Positions 15,915 to 20,498 of a stretch of 20,498 nucleotides of DNA are shown one piece after another. The DNA is from a virus. A program made the position numbers and the translations under genes. Each line of letters opens with the position of its first letter. Position 1 is the first letter of the stretch. The DNA lies in the IMG/VR virus record IMGVR_UViG_3300009034_004109, positions 1-20,498 of that record, one strand, 5' to 3'. The notes beneath the pieces were generated by a model. The model worked only from the letters and a program-made list of their open reading frames with translations, searched no databases and was not told the DNA's origin.

Positions 15915-16727
15915 TCACTCCCTTGTCTTATAAATTAATCCATCCTTATCATAATCCTTAGCAAGTAATACCAGAGAATGTATATTGTGTTTAAAATCTT
16001 GACCGCTCATACAATATCCTGCTTCCAAAACTCGAAATGTCTCACTATCTATCACTGAATTGAATTCTTGCCTCCCTATTCTCCAATCCGCAATTATCCT
16101 ATTACCAGTAATCGAATATTGTATAAGTTCGGCCCCTACCCTACGAAAAGCTAAAATCAATCTTCCATGCATTGTTTTTCTTAGCTTTTCGGCTTCCTGT
16201 TCTGCCTTCAATTCCTCAAGCTGCTGCTTTTCAAGTTCATAGAATAAACAAAGTGTTCTTAATTCAGGAGTAAGGCCTTTTAATCCCTTAATATCTCCAT
16301 CTGATTCTATTATATTTTTTACTGTATAGATGAATGAATCCCGGTAATTAGGTTGATAATAATAAAGTTTTCCATCTTCCCAAATTACCGCTATGATAGA
16401 TGAAAAAGAAGGACACATGTTTAAATAAATATCCGTCATTATTTCTCTGCCTGTCCTTCTTTTTCCCACATCAAAATTCTGAAAAATAAATTGTTCATTA
16501 AACACGTATCCTCTTATTGTATTTAATTTTTCTTTATAATCAATCATAACTGTTTGGCTTATTTTCCTACAATCATTTCCTTTTATTTCTACTTCATACC
16601 ATCCAGATTCAGAAAAAGATATATTATATTTTTTCCCTTTGTATTTAAAAGTACCACTTATAATAGGTACAATCGTATTTATAACATTTGCATATTTTTC
16701 TAAATTTATCAAACCGCTTCCCACCAT
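15915..16727 (-). CDS. Unknown protein coupled to Ro60 (270 aa)
   Basis: Not recognised. The N-terminal part is beta-rich (INTIVPIISGTFKYKGKKYN, then GWYEVEIKG). The middle has CPSFSSIIAVIWEDGKLYYY. Residues about 164-190 form a Glu/Lys coiled coil (LEKQQLEELKAEQEAEKLRK). The C-terminal segment (IADWRIGRQEFNSVIDSETF, then EAGYCMSGQDFKHNIHSL) looks conserved. The start lies inside the last codons of the Ro60 gene (19-base overlap) without a clear ribosome site, so the two proteins are probably made together. That makes this a candidate partner of the phage Ro60 particle, for example an RNA-handling or regulatory subunit. M1 could also be replaced by a later start. Confidence 0.6.
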   Translation of the reverse strand: MVGSGLINLEKYANVINTIVPIISGTFKYKGKKYNISFSESGWYEVEIKGNDCRKISQTVMIDYKEKLNTIRGYVFNEQFIFQNFDVGKRRTGREIMTDIYLNMCPSFSSIIAVIWEDGKLYYYQPNYRDSFIYTVKNIIESDGDIKGLKGLTPELRTLCLFYELEKQQLEELKAEQEAEKLRKTMHGRLILAFRRVGAELIQYSITGNRIIADWRIGRQEFNSVIDSETFRVLEAGYCMSGQDFKHNIHSLVLLAKDYDKDGLIYKTRE

Positions 16728-18277
16728 TCAGGTAATTTTAACAATGGTGTCTGCATAATCTCATCAATAATTGCAATTGCTCCTATTGCTGCTGTTTTAA
16801 TTGTCTGTACCACCAATGCTGATTCTATTAATGTCTCAGGTTTTATAATTGAAACTGGTATATCATTACGTGTAAATGCTTTAAATAAATCTCCATATTT
16901 CCCATTACCAAAATCAATAATTATAACAACTTTAGATTTTCCATATTCAATTATATATTTATTGATATTACCTCTATTATGTTCTTGATCCGTCACGTAT
17001 ATATCAACATCACAATTTAATTCCCGGGCTTTTTGATAACATGCTAAACAATCAGTCCATCCATCTGCTTTTATGCCGTAAAGTTTTTGCATAAAAGCAC
17101 CTTGTGTAAATGTATCCGGTTTTTCAAGTAAATATCCATTCTGATTAAAACATCCCCAATGAAAATTTTCTTTAGGATTTTTTACACATTCTGCAATTAT
17201 AGCGCCTTTCTCTTTTGCAAATTCTATCGCAGGTTGCATGGAAGAAGAAATATCTATATGGAGAAATATTTTACCTATTTCCCCAAACTCTTCTTTTCTT
17301 TTTTTAGATTTTGCTTTCTTTAATGCTTTTTCAACTTTTTCACTTGTTACTGTATTCATTCTCTCAACCCGGTTAAGCGCATCTTTGGCTATATTAAGCT
17401 TTTGCTCAAACAATTCTATAATTTCATTATGTCTCAACAATCCCTGTCTTTCAAATAAAGATTTTAAAATCACTGTTTGATTTCCTGTTGCTTGTTCAAG
17501 AATTGCCACAGCTATCACAGGAGATATCTTTTCAGGTAATGCACCCACGGCAACCATAGAATTTATCTTTTCTTTTCTGATCTTTTTTGCTATATCAATG
17601 TCTTTCATTCCCTTGAAAGACAAAGCCTGTTCTTTTTTGATTTCCCTACCGTCTTTCTGTTCCCATCTTAAAATCCCTGCCACTTCCATTGATGGTGCTA
17701 TTCTTGCCATTCTGTATAGATTCATCAATATTTTACGTAATCCTGCTTTCTTAATTCCTTTTACAATATATAAATTATTTTCTCGATATCTTAAATATTT
17801 TATTAAAGCTTTCTTTAAAGACTTAGGGAAGTGTGTACCTTCTCTATATTTATTACTATAAGCTATTTTAAGATTAGCTAATTGTATCACTCTTAATGCA
17901 AGTTTAGGTTCAAGCATTTGAAATCCTGCTTGTGTTATCATGCGTAAATTAGGTTTATTATATTCAGATTTTATTACTTTCCCTTCTTTGTTCGTTTCAA
18001 TGAATGGTGTGCCATCTGCATCCGATAAAGCATTTGCAAATACCGATACAACTTTCAAGTCTTTGCTGTCAAGTTTAGTAACTGCATAACTTGTAAAGTG
18101 AACAAGGAAATATGGATCTTTTTCAGCAAGATTTATAAATGTAGATATAATCGATTTGTATTTATCTAATTGCAATTTTCCTTTTGACCATAAATGTATA
18201 CATCCACTTGTAATTATTTCATATGCTTTAAATCTGTCATTATCATCCATGTAGGATAATTGAAATTCATTCATCAT
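16709..18277 (-). CDS. rsr: Ro60/Rsr homologue (TROVE + vWA domains)
   Basis: A 522-aa protein, close to the usual 520-540 aa of Ro60. Residues 1 to about 335 are the helical-repeat TROVE ring: DRFKAYEIITSGCIHLWSKG at the start, then LAEKDPYFLVHFTSYAV and the basic KSLKKALIKYLRYREN. Residues about 336-522 are a von Willebrand A domain. It has a complete metal site: DISSSM (D342, S344, S346), T408 in GWTD and D430 in VTDQEHN. Ro60 binds Y RNAs on its outer surface and misfolded RNA ends in its central hole. Bacterial Rsr works with exoribonucleases such as PNPase. Here the gene lies directly downstream of Y-RNA-like elements. A tandem ATGATG start follows an AAGGAAG site. Confidence 0.93.
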   Translation of the reverse strand: MMNEFQLSYMDDNDRFKAYEIITSGCIHLWSKGKLQLDKYKSIISTFINLAEKDPYFLVHFTSYAVTKLDSKDLKVVSVFANALSDADGTPFIETNKEGKVIKSEYNKPNLRMITQAGFQMLEPKLALRVIQLANLKIAYSNKYREGTHFPKSLKKALIKYLRYRENNLYIVKGIKKAGLRKILMNLYRMARIAPSMEVAGILRWEQKDGREIKKEQALSFKGMKDIDIAKKIRKEKINSMVAVGALPEKISPVIAVAILEQATGNQTVILKSLFERQGLLRHNEIIELFEQKLNIAKDALNRVERMNTVTSEKVEKALKKAKSKKRKEEFGEIGKIFLHIDISSSMQPAIEFAKEKGAIIAECVKNPKENFHWGCFNQNGYLLEKPDTFTQGAFMQKLYGIKADGWTDCLACYQKARELNCDVDIYVTDQEHNRGNINKYIIEYGKSKVVIIIDFGNGKYGDLFKAFTRNDIPVSIIKPETLIESALVVQTIKTAAIGAIAIIDEIMQTPLLKLPEWWEAV

Positions 18278-18305: not shown

Positions 18306-18385
18306 AGCGGTTCAAGTTAAATAAGCATATCATGCTAAATTGATTTACAGTCAATATGCTTGTAAGCCTATTCTGTGGAACCGCT
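18306..18385 (-). ncRNA. Y-RNA-like element A, upstream of Ro60
   Basis: Minus-strand RNA with an 8-bp closing stem AGCGGUUC/GAACCGCU, a bulged C, then AAUAGGC/GCUUAUU with one G-U pair. It carries the shared signatures UUCCA, UUACAAGC and ACUUGAA, matching the form of Ro60 sites in Y RNAs. The loop holds AUUGA-CUGUAAA-UCAAU (18339-18355), whose loop is identical in type to a tRNA-Tyr(GUA) anticodon loop, and a second small AGCAU-GAU-AUGCU hairpin. The stem is followed by UAUUUUAUUAU, so it may also cause partial termination. It ends about 30 bases before the Ro60 start and could bind Ro60 as an autoregulatory element. Confidence 0.75.
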
Positions 18386-18665: not shown

Positions 18666-18687
18666 ATTATTCTCCTTTTCTATAAAT

Positions 18688-18790
18688 AAATAAGTTCAAG
18701 TGAATTTGATTGTTTTACTTATGATAGACTGTCTTACGCCCTACAGTCTGGAGGGTTATGCTTGTAAATCAAATCCGTTGGAACTTATCT
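18688..18790 (-). ncRNA. Y-RNA-like element B
   Basis: Closing stem AGAUAAGUUC/GAACUUAUUU (10 pairs, one G-U), bulged C, internal loop, then an AUUUGAUU/AAUCAAAU helix of 8 pairs. It has the shared UUCCA, UUACAAGC and ACUUGAA boxes. The loop carries one strong hairpin, AGACUGU, a 10-base loop and ACAGUCU (7 pairs). Its 5' end lies one base past the tRNA-Arg discriminator, so 3' processing of the tRNA would also free this RNA. Confidence 0.78.
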
Positions 18791-18791
18791 A

Positions 18792-18928
18792 CGGGGCGAG
18801 AAGGATTCGAACCTCCACATAAGCTTGTAAAATAATTTAGTGGAACTATTATATAATAGTTCAAGTTAAATTATTTTCTGCAAAATACAGTTCCGTATAC
18901 TGCTACCCTTCCATTGGGTAATCGCCCC
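18792..18928 (-). tRNA. tRNA-Arg(ACG) with a Y-RNA stem in its variable region
   Basis: On the minus strand all parts of a class I tRNA are present. Acceptor is GGGGCGA/UCGCCCC (7 perfect pairs, discriminator G). D arm is ACCC-AAUGGAA-GGGU. Anticodon arm is GCAGU-AUACGGA-ACUGU with anticodon ACG. T arm is GGAGG-UUCGAAU-CCUUC. Instead of about 5 bases, the variable region is 70 bases (18817-18886). It holds a long hairpin with the Ro60-site boxes in permuted order: ACUUGAA first, UUCCA second, then UUACAAGC. No CCA is encoded. It could be a charged tRNA tethered to Ro60, or a Y RNA built on a tRNA. An intron is unlikely, as the insert is not in the anticodon loop. Confidence 0.88.
18829..18877 (-). 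ncRNA. Permuted Ro60-binding stem (element C) inside tRNA-Arg
   Basis: Minus-strand hairpin: AAAAUAAUUUA pairs with UAAAUUAUUUU (11 pairs), then an asymmetric ACUU/CAC internal loop, then the palindrome whose DNA is GAACTATTATATAATAGTTC. The boxes and spacing match elements A, B, D and E. Here the end that is open in the other four is closed by a short loop, and the usual loop position is occupied by the tRNA. Confidence 0.8.
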
Positions 18929-18938
18929 AATATATATA

Positions 18939-19030
18939 AACCAGGTTCAAGTTATAGTAAGCGTTTCAGTTACGCCCAATCATCATGTGAATGGGAATTT
19001 GCTTGTAAGCTTACCTAATGGAACCCGGTT
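18939..19030 (-). ncRNA. Y-RNA-like element D
   Basis: Closing stem AACCGGGUUC/GAACCUGGUU (10 pairs, one G-U), bulged C, then GUAAGC/GCUUAC. UUCCA, UUACAAGC and ACUUGAA boxes are present. The loop has two arms: CCCA-U-UCA-CAUGA-UGA-U-UGGG, and GCGU-AACUGAA-ACGC with a 7-base loop like a T arm. Two arms within a Y stem recall the tRNA-like module of bacterial YrlA RNAs. It lies between tRNA-Arg and element E. Confidence 0.78.
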
Positions 19031-19043
19031 AATTTACAATATA

Positions 19044-19173
19044 GAGTGATTCAAGTTTATAAGACACATCATTTGCTGCAAAGACGGGTTTGAACCATCG
19101 ACCTATAGTTTATGAAACTATTGCTCTAACCACTGAGCTAATCTGCATGTAAGTCTCATAGTTGGAATCACTC
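19044..19173 (-). ncRNA. Y-RNA-like element E enclosing a tRNA
   Basis: Closing stem GAGUGAUUC/GAAUCACUC (9 perfect pairs), bulged C, A-A paired with U-U, a small internal loop, then AUGAGAC/GUCUUAU (7 pairs, one G-U). It has UUCCA, UUACAUGC (one change from the other copies) and ACUUGAA boxes. The loop is a nearly complete tRNA with anticodon CAU. It is the first element after the promoter. Confidence 0.8.
19076..19148 (-). tRNA. tRNA with CAU anticodon nested in Y-RNA element E
   Basis: Minus strand: D arm GCUC-AGUGGUUA-GAGC, anticodon arm AUAGU-UUCAUAA-ACUAU (anticodon CAU), variable AGGUC and T arm GAUGG-UUCAAAC-CCGUC are all canonical. The acceptor is odd. UGCAGA/UUUGCA gives six pairs, the 1-72 pair would be A against G, and three bases (UUA) rather than two link the acceptor to the D arm. 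CCA is not encoded. It could be tRNA-Met, a tRNA-Ile read through lysidine modification, or a non-charged tRNA mimic used by Ro60. It lacks the three G-C pairs of an initiator anticodon stem. Confidence 0.72.
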
Positions 19174-19188
19174 ATTATTCTACTCCTC

Positions 19189-19243
19189 GCTCGGAAAGTA
19201 TAGGTTGAGAAATAGAATTGTTTCAATATTAGGCTTTCCGAGC
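19189..19243 (-). ncRNA. 5' hairpin of the RNA-array transcript
   Basis: GCUCGGAAAG and CUUUCCGAGC form ten perfect pairs around a 35-base loop that contains AUUG-AAA-CAAU. It starts about five bases after the predicted transcription start. It lacks the Y boxes. It may protect the 5' end or be a processing signal. Confidence 0.6.
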
Positions 19244-19328: not shown

Positions 19329-20498
19329 TTATTTTAAGATAAAATGACCACCTGTATTTATATTATTGTCCATGAGCCACCCATGAATGGCATAACGTGA
19401 AGCATCACTATTTTTAACAAGTATATTATTTGCAAAGTATTCATGAGCATTCTCAACAGAAATACTATATACTTTTTTCATTCCTTTGTATTTCATATTG
19501 TCACATGTAGTATATCCATGTATTCCATTTATGATAATATAAAATTGATCATACATTTGAAATGTATTAATTTCTTTATATTTATTTTCATTTATACAAT
19601 AAAATTTATGATTATTTGTACAAATTATTTTATTTGTACCAATTTCATATTCAAATACATCTTTTATTCCTGTCATATATTTATTATAAACTCTTTTATA
19701 TCCCTGTCTAGTTAAAACCATATCTCCTATTTTTATATTTTTTATCTTAACCTGTCCCTTATCAGTCAATATCAATGTATCACCAGCTAAACATTCGTGA
19801 TCATTCTCTTTTACATGGTTCCCATACAGAAAACCTTGACCGCTTGGATCTTCTTGATTAGTAAGATTTACCATACTCTGGAATGTATGTTTACATTTTA
19901 CGTCAAAAAACAATTCACAACTATTCACACTCGAATCTCCGGCCCCAATTTCTTTGTATGCAGGTTTTGCTGCATATCCTGCATTTTCAAGTACTTTTAT
20001 TCTGTCCGGTTCGTGATCACAATAGCAAATATGATTCTCTTGTTTTATTCCATATATTTTGTCAAGTATTTTTACCAGATCTTCTGTTATTCCATCTAAT
20101 ATTATAATTTCATGAATACAATATGCTTGCACAATTTTTTTTGTTCTCTTAAATCCCCATACAATCGCACACATATAATAACCCCAGTCTATCCCTACTG
20201 CAATATCATCATAGAAATGATATATATTTTTTTCACATTCTATTTTATTTTTTTCTTTGACATTTTTATAGACTGCCCCTGGAAGATATGTCCATTCACC
20301 CTTAAAAAATCTTGCCTGTTTATCTTTTGGTAATTTCATTAATATATTTTCAATATATCCAGGTGGTAAATTTTCTTTATTATCATCCGGTAAGAACTTT
20401 AATACTCCTCTACTTTCAATTTTATCTATATAGAATTCTTTAAATAAATAATGATAAGGTTGTCGTGGATTACAATCATAAATTATAAAATTAGAAAA
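19329..20498 (-). CDS. Terminase large subunit, C-terminal part, with intein
   Basis: The frame runs off the right edge, so the N-terminal ATPase half is outside; the ATG at 20337-20339 is internal. What is seen is the motor-nuclease linker (CNPRQPYHYLFKEF, then LPKDKQARFFKGEW). The RuvC-like nuclease follows: VGIDWG with the first Asp, DHEPDR as second acidic motif, and after splicing NDHE-SDASRYAIHGW with the third. The enzyme cuts concatemeric phage DNA and pumps it through the portal. An intein interrupts the last motif, so splicing is required for nuclease activity. The short C-terminus ends in GGHFILK. The pattern fits a PBSX/T4-like terminase. Confidence 0.88.
   Translation of the reverse strand, partial: FSNFIIYDCNPRQPYHYLFKEFYIDKIESRGVLKFLPDDNKENLPPGYIENILMKLPKDKQARFFKGEWTYLPGAVYKNVKEKNKIECEKNIYHFYDDIAVGIDWGYYMCAIVWGFKRTKKIVQAYCIHEIIILDGITEDLVKILDKIYGIKQENHICYCDHEPDRIKVLENAGYAAKPAYKEIGAGDSSVNSCELFFDVKCKHTFQSMVNLTNQEDPSGQGFLYGNHVKENDHECLAGDTLILTDKGQVKIKNIKIGDMVLTRQGYKRVYNKYMTGIKDVFEYEIGTNKIICTNNHKFYCINENKYKEINTFQMYDQFYIIINGIHGYTTCDNMKYKGMKKVYSISVENAHEYFANNILVKNSDASRYAIHGWLMDNNINTGGHFILK
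19410..19793 (-). other. Mini-intein in the terminase nuclease motif (128 aa)
   Basis: The segment begins CLAGDTLILTDKG (block A, Cys1), has CTNNH (block B, TxxH) at about residues 58-62, and ends VYSISVENAHEYFANNILVK-N (blocks F and G). Ser is the first extein residue (SDASRYA). Removing it restores the terminase motif. There is no homing-endonuclease domain. The penultimate residue is Lys instead of the usual His, a deviation seen in some inteins that still splice. Confidence 0.88.

Follow-up and report, generated by a model that had tools for sequence, protein, structure and literature searches.

Animal Y RNAs are bound by Ro60 at their lower stem, a helix with a small internal loop that has a C(C)A-like motif on its 5' side and ACUU|G on its 3' side; the ACUUG strand was used in the stem comparison made here. 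The same comparison made use of the conserved GGUCCGA of these RNAs (PMC11277228). Earlier work describes the YrlA RNAs as mimics of tRNA. In their Rfam consensus (RF02553), two Y strands enclose the T arm, acceptor and D arm, in this order and with no anticodon arm, and a Ro60 relative accompanies these RNAs. In Deinococcus, a Y RNA serves as the tether between Rsr and PNPase (PMC7790460), and PMC8394870 places the Salmonella rsr-yrlBA genes with rtcBA. Phages also encode a Ro60 fold, as exemplified by the TROVE/Ro60 proteins in PMC7824862 and the Ro60 of Thermus phage phiLo (PDB 9l5y). Circularly permuted tRNA genes from other sources are processed through circles, as stated in PMC10085705.

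The window, that is, the whole stretch of DNA that was analysed, is a 20.5-kb fragment of a phage genome (20,498 nucleotides). It contains an RNA gene, here called C3, in which a Y-type stem extends from the variable region of a tRNA-Arg. C3 lies amid four canonical Y-like RNAs (C1, C2, C4 and C5), all on the same strand; a divergent Ro60 gene comes directly downstream of this group.

The tRNA body of C3 and the stem in its variable region

18792..18928, minus strand: C3, tRNA-Arg(ACG) with a permuted Y-type stem in a 70-nt variable region (arms, Rfam, folding, ARAGORN)
18928-18922/18799-18793, minus strand: acceptor, 7 bp, GGGGCGA/UCGCCCC
18919-18905, minus strand: D arm, ACCC-AAUGGAA-GGGU
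18903-18887, minus strand: anticodon arm, GCAGU-AUACGGA-ACUGU
18892..18898, minus strand: anticodon loop AUACGGA, with anticodon ACG at 18896-18894 and U33 present
18886-18817, minus strand: variable region, 70 nt
18823..18878, minus strand: permuted Y-type element (folding, hairpin/motif search, conserved motif)
18877-18867/18839-18829, minus strand: stem2 of this element, 11 bp
18862-18855/18850-18843, minus strand: stem1 of this element, 8 bp with a 4-nt closing loop
18816-18800, minus strand: T arm, GGAGG-UUCGAAU-CCUUC
18792, minus strand: discriminator G

The acceptor, D, anticodon and T arms are all of standard tRNA size, in agreement with the first-pass annotation, which had read this gene as an intact four-arm tRNA-Arg with a variable region of 70 bases. 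The Rfam tRNA model (RF00005) aligned over 18927-18794 around the long insert with 27.7 bits (E 0.002 in a short search). This is below the gathering score of 29 bits, the insert being penalised; relatives with the same insert score 43-53 bits. ARAGORN, which had been proposed as a check, made no call on the full-length gene and recognised tRNA-Arg(acg) once the insert was left out. Folding of the whole gene gave a z of -5.3 in comparison to 200 shuffles. An extra stem in the variable region is also a feature of class II tRNAs, which tolerate long variable arms. However, the 70-nt arm of C3 is to our knowledge far above any known class II arm, and it carries a conserved motif of a protein-docking type that is unrelated to tRNA identity.

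From 5' to 3', the insert folds as GAAAAUAAUUUA-ACUU-GAACUAUU-AUAU-AAUAGUUC-CAC-UAAAUUAUUUU-ACAAGC. The internal loop ACUU/CAC separates the 11-bp and 8-bp stems, and the conserved UUACAAGC is found on the 3' side of the element. The boxes appear as ACUUGAA...UUCCA, which is the reverse of their order in the four canonical copies of the window: the parts are the same, but the strands are swapped and the end of stem1 is closed by a loop. The reversed order and the tight closing loop had already been noted in the annotation. Its further proposal, a Y-type stem in the variable region that is permuted in such a way that the tRNA body becomes the Y loop, is supported, and a Ro60-fold gene adjoins C3. 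The stem resembles the lower stem of animal Y RNAs in its helix, small internal loop and strand motifs, while in contrast to these RNAs it ends in a hairpin loop and a tRNA occupies the place of the Y loop.

A combined hairpin and motif search of 159 loci found stems of 8+11 bp at the C3 site only, with 6+7 as the best chance match, and the pattern of element plus T arm had 0 matches in dinucleotide shuffles of the window. The core of the Y stem, including the internal loop, is common to the five copies in the window and to many relatives, and it covaries. None of the Y elements reached the gathering score of the Rfam Y or YrlA models, and direct DNA searches yielded no close relatives of the element; a broad pattern scan for relatives was dropped, ordinary tRNAs having swamped its output. 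The putative identity as a Y stem is based on the resemblance to GGUCCGA/ACUUG-type motifs and on the adjoining Ro60-fold gene, without an Rfam match.

The Ro60-like protein and the canonical Y-like RNAs

15915..16727, minus strand: conserved partner gene, 270 aa, near the Ro60 gene in relatives (comparison with relatives)
16709..18277, minus strand: Ro60-like protein, 522 aa, predicted helical ring and vWA domain (Foldseek, MIDAS residues)
18306..18385, minus strand: C1, canonical Y-like RNA with a short hairpin loop (folding, motif boxes)
about 18686..18790, minus strand: C2, canonical Y-like RNA with a pseudoknot-like loop (folding, motif boxes)
18939..19030, minus strand: C4, canonical Y-like RNA with a pseudoknot-like loop (folding, motif boxes)
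19044..19173, minus strand: C5, canonical Y-like RNA with a complete tRNA-Met(CAU) as its loop, at 19075-19148 (RF00005 55.6 bits)

The Ro60-like protein has no match to Pfam TROVE (PF05731) and was left unnamed by sequence searches of Pfam, PHROGs and the PDB. Relatives were collected from jumbo phages. A single-sequence structure model was set aside because of its poor fold, so that an alignment of 31 sequences was needed, and the model based on it has a mean pLDDT of 75. Its best 11 Foldseek matches are all Ro60/TROVE proteins (E 3e-7 to 2e-5) and include 1yvp (Ro60 solved with RNAs), 2nvo (Deinococcus Rsr) and the Thermus phage Ro60 9l5y. Since the global TM between the model and Ro60 is low (0.3-0.4), the fold assignment rests on these E-values and on their consistency. 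The residues of the vWA MIDAS (DxSxS...T...D), D342, S344, S346, T408 and D430, are invariant in the 31 relatives. As modelled, the 522-aa protein has the helical ring and vWA fold of Ro60/TROVE. This fold is shared with the phage proteins mentioned above; unlike those, the branch in the window has diverged too far to be recognised by Pfam TROVE, and it is found beside arrays of Y-tRNA chimeras. The same Ro60-like gene is also present in eight contigs of bacterial MAGs (L250-L257), which are probably phage contigs that were binned with their hosts.

In C1, C2, C4 and C5, the UUCCA box is on the 5' strand and ACUUGAA on the 3' strand, with UUACAAGC or UUACAUGC coming after the second stem's 5' strand. 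An H-type pseudoknot is possible in the loops of C2 and C4, which have the linker GGGCGUAA in common. The arrangement of C5, with tRNA-Met(CAU) in the Y loop, is seen again in another phage contig (L026 9274-9407). Just upstream of C5, a perfect 10-bp inverted repeat, GCTCGGAAAG/CTTTCCGAGC, surrounds 35 nt (19189-19243, minus strand) and is possibly another small RNA. An ORF at 19329-20339 (minus strand), probably a large terminase, contains a Hint/intein-like domain. The 88-aa ORF between C2 and C1 has no clear relative in LR756511.1, a phage of 595 kb.

Recurrence in jumbo phages and the ring order of YrlA

The first-pass annotation had been aware of no described tRNA of this form. C3 has many counterparts, however, and the large class that they form has at least five attachment points for the Y stem: across phages, this stem is found in the variable region, in the D loop, at position 26, in the anticodon loop and at the acceptor end. 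Long tRNAs were searched for in 2.09 Mb as a 7-bp acceptor and a T arm at a distance of 98-190 nt, with ACAAG immediately ahead of the T stem; there were 69 candidates, compared to 0 in the reversed control. Inspection by eye identified a few of these as chance matches or overlapping ordinary tRNAs; in the majority, a tRNA carries a Y hairpin in its variable region, at the same place as in C3. They mostly originate from jumbo-phage contigs, and the variable-region class comprises loci L008, L015-L017, L019, L020, L022, L026, L029, L033-L035, L038 and contigs found by the RNA pattern only. In other phage copies, Y RNAs enclose a circularly permuted tRNA. Of the 17 contigs that came from the RNA pattern and were regarded as containing a validated chimera, 15 have a Ro60 homolog (10 of 12 after exclusion of those that the protein search had already yielded); the 41 control contigs, which are smaller on average, have none. 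One Y-tRNA array contains an SRP RNA-like sequence (L020 10565-10650, plus strand; RF00169 34.1 bits over a truncated stretch).

The closest relative found is a 252.9-kb contig (L201/L248), with 47% identity for Ro60 and 44% for the partner gene. As in C3, the variable region of three of its tRNAs (in L201) contains the element ACUUGAAC...GUUCC...UUACAAGC, a motif that in these three regions can also be written AACUUGAAC...GUUCC...UACAAGC. Unrelated variable arms in related phages had been named as an observation that would speak against the annotation; given the shared element in this relative, that objection falls away. At L248 14990-14855 (minus strand; RF00005 49 bits, 68-nt insert), the Y element is located inside the anticodon loop, and this tRNA therefore has no anticodon. 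The contig also has several canonical Y RNAs, one of them around a circularly permuted tRNA.

In LR756511.1, canonical Y RNAs lie upstream of a Ro60 homolog, with tRNA-Thr(UGU) in the loop of one and a tRNA (CGA) in that of another, and permuted Y elements, mostly closed by GAAA loops, lie inside tRNAs. Some are grafted in the D loop, for example at 21438-21312 (RF00005 50.6 bits, 55-nt insert), and one is placed between the D and anticodon arms (19259-19135). Covariation is seen among seven permuted copies, in which paired cells make up 92.3%, compared with 32-55% in slid controls. A covariance model made from the copies of this phage has strong matches there only in the 4 kb beside the Ro60 gene and weaker sites in a few other phages, and C3 was not found by it. 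Free-standing Y RNAs with the same core and without any tRNA are present in locus L159, as is the case for C1, C2 and C4 of the window. Other structures on the minus strand of L159 are a run of three permuted Y hairpins in which no tRNA is recognisable (19647-19338), possibly one larger RNA; a tRNA with a GAAA-closed hairpin replacing the anticodon loop (20690-20616); a tRNA with a long anticodon-loop insert without a Y motif (18303-18202); and a Y 5' half followed by ACGGUCAUAAGGUAGCG (20540-20200). We take ACGGUCAUAAGGUAGCG to resemble 23S rRNA near helix 69; blastn of this stretch against E. coli genomes gave no match.

At ten further places, a canonical Y-like context surrounds, in this order, the T arm, the acceptor 3' strand, a short linker, the acceptor 5' strand, the D arm and the anticodon arm. 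The reversed control of this search gave 0, and a looser set of 35 includes probable false positives from tandem tRNAs. When rotated, all ten elements are called tRNA by ARAGORN, some of them without an assigned identity. The order of T arm, acceptor, D and anticodon is that of the circularly permuted tRNA genes of algae. Unlike the algal cases, however, the permuted tRNAs of phages reside inside Y RNAs, and in C3 it is the Y element that is permuted and not the tRNA.

The YrlA model RF02553 aligns with the T arm, closed acceptor and D arm of a phage permuted-tRNA Y RNA (28.1 bits, E 5e-4). Its gathering score (69 bits) was not reached: C3 had no match, and 28.1 bits is the best score of a phage relative. 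Read against the consensus, the arms of C3 follow the ring order of YrlA, which leads from the Y 5' strand through the T arm, an acceptor-like stem and the D arm to the Y 3' strand. On account of this shared order, C3 can be considered a YrlA ring that is opened at the acceptor and has kept its anticodon arm. In contrast to YrlA, the ring of C3 is closed at the Y stem, and C3 scores as a tRNA. The shared ring order is the strongest tie of C3 to a known family. For the suggested evolutionary step between tRNA and YrlA, this provides the structural link and not the direction of evolution, as the likeness is one of common architecture and not of direction of descent.

Possible roles of the tRNA bodies

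It seems fairly probable that C3 is a Ro60-tethered tRNA chimera, from a class in which tRNA bodies are predicted to serve as mimics or decoys, or as recruiters. Observed for this proposal are the architecture and its recurrence, the presence of a Ro60 gene alongside, and a ring order in common with YrlA. The Y-type stem would bind to the Ro60-like ring that the phage itself encodes, with the complete tRNA body held at the opposite end of the stem, in the position of the tRNA-like module of YrlA RNAs. Within the class, the site at which the Y stem is grafted onto the tRNA varies, and the ring is opened either at the tRNA acceptor, as in C3, or at the Y stem, as in YrlA-like forms. The tRNA bodies may mainly be mimics or decoys, for instance for host tRNA-cleaving defence enzymes, which is less certain than the binding to Ro60; alternatively, they could be displayed for the recruitment of tRNA-binding proteins, rather than for decoding.

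C3 itself may be a working tRNA-Arg, since it has kept a canonical anticodon loop: with ACG, U33 and a 7-bp acceptor, charging could be possible, ARAGORN recognises the gene without the insert, canonical loops occur in some relatives too, and class II tRNAs also bear long variable arms. It is nevertheless unlikely that C3 is simply an aminoacylated tRNA for CGN codons, with a Ro60 tag merely for stability or quality control. Its arm exceeds those of the known class II tRNAs. Moreover, a canonical 7-nt anticodon loop with U33 is found in 14 of 32 variable-region chimeras versus 112 of 128 ordinary tRNAs from the same loci, analysed with the same script (Fisher p = 7e-7, an optimistic value because the chimeras are phylogenetically related and the items not independent). 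The other 18 have an 8-nt loop, no U33 or no anticodon arm, so that many chimeras are probably not decoders. Some permuted relatives have GCAA or UUCG as a short loop that seals the acceptor, while others keep CCA-like linkers. With altered anticodon loops, a Y stem in place of the anticodon at L248 and sealed acceptors, decoding does not account for the whole class.

Excision of the Y stem as a tRNA intron or another processed insert, leaving an ordinary tRNA, would fit with the several insertion positions, including the anticodon loop, with the normal tRNA that results from removal, and with the circular processing of permuted tRNA genes cited above. This is highly improbable, given that the same core exists in tRNA-free Y RNAs (C1, C2 and C4 in the window, and in L159) and co-occurs with a Ro60-fold gene; non-canonical anticodon loops would persist in many chimeras after removal, and no known self-splicing family gave a convincing score. 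The tRNA body could also be a handle that brings PNPase, another RNase or an enzyme of RNA repair to Ro60, reminiscent of RYPER and rtcB operons and in line with the Deinococcus tether and the Salmonella gene neighbourhood. We regard this as quite unlikely: of the 27 records of these phages, only 11 encode RtcB, which is absent from LR756511.1 and from the closest relative of the window, and a single handle leaves the variety of tRNA identities unexplained. An extension of the tethered-chimera proposal, conceivable though on balance doubtful, is a modular RNP of jumbo phages in which Ro60 displays a panel of complete tRNA bodies as decoys against host defences aimed at tRNAs and from which cellular YrlA descends. 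Each tRNA body would then be attached wherever the needed face stays free, and YrlA would be the same ring re-opened at the Y stem, with loss of the anticodon arm.

An entire class of phage genes escapes the standard tRNA finders; C3, unreported by ARAGORN, is an example. These chimeras provide defined substrates for studying Ro60 binding, recruitment or decoy action through a tRNA face, and new cut sites in the tRNA ring. Intermediates between tRNA and YrlA are seen here beside a Ro60 gene: tRNAs with a Y stem, and Y RNAs with an entire tRNA, which in some of them is permuted. The class thus suggests a non-decoding use of tRNA bodies and ties ordinary tRNAs to the YrlA RNAs.
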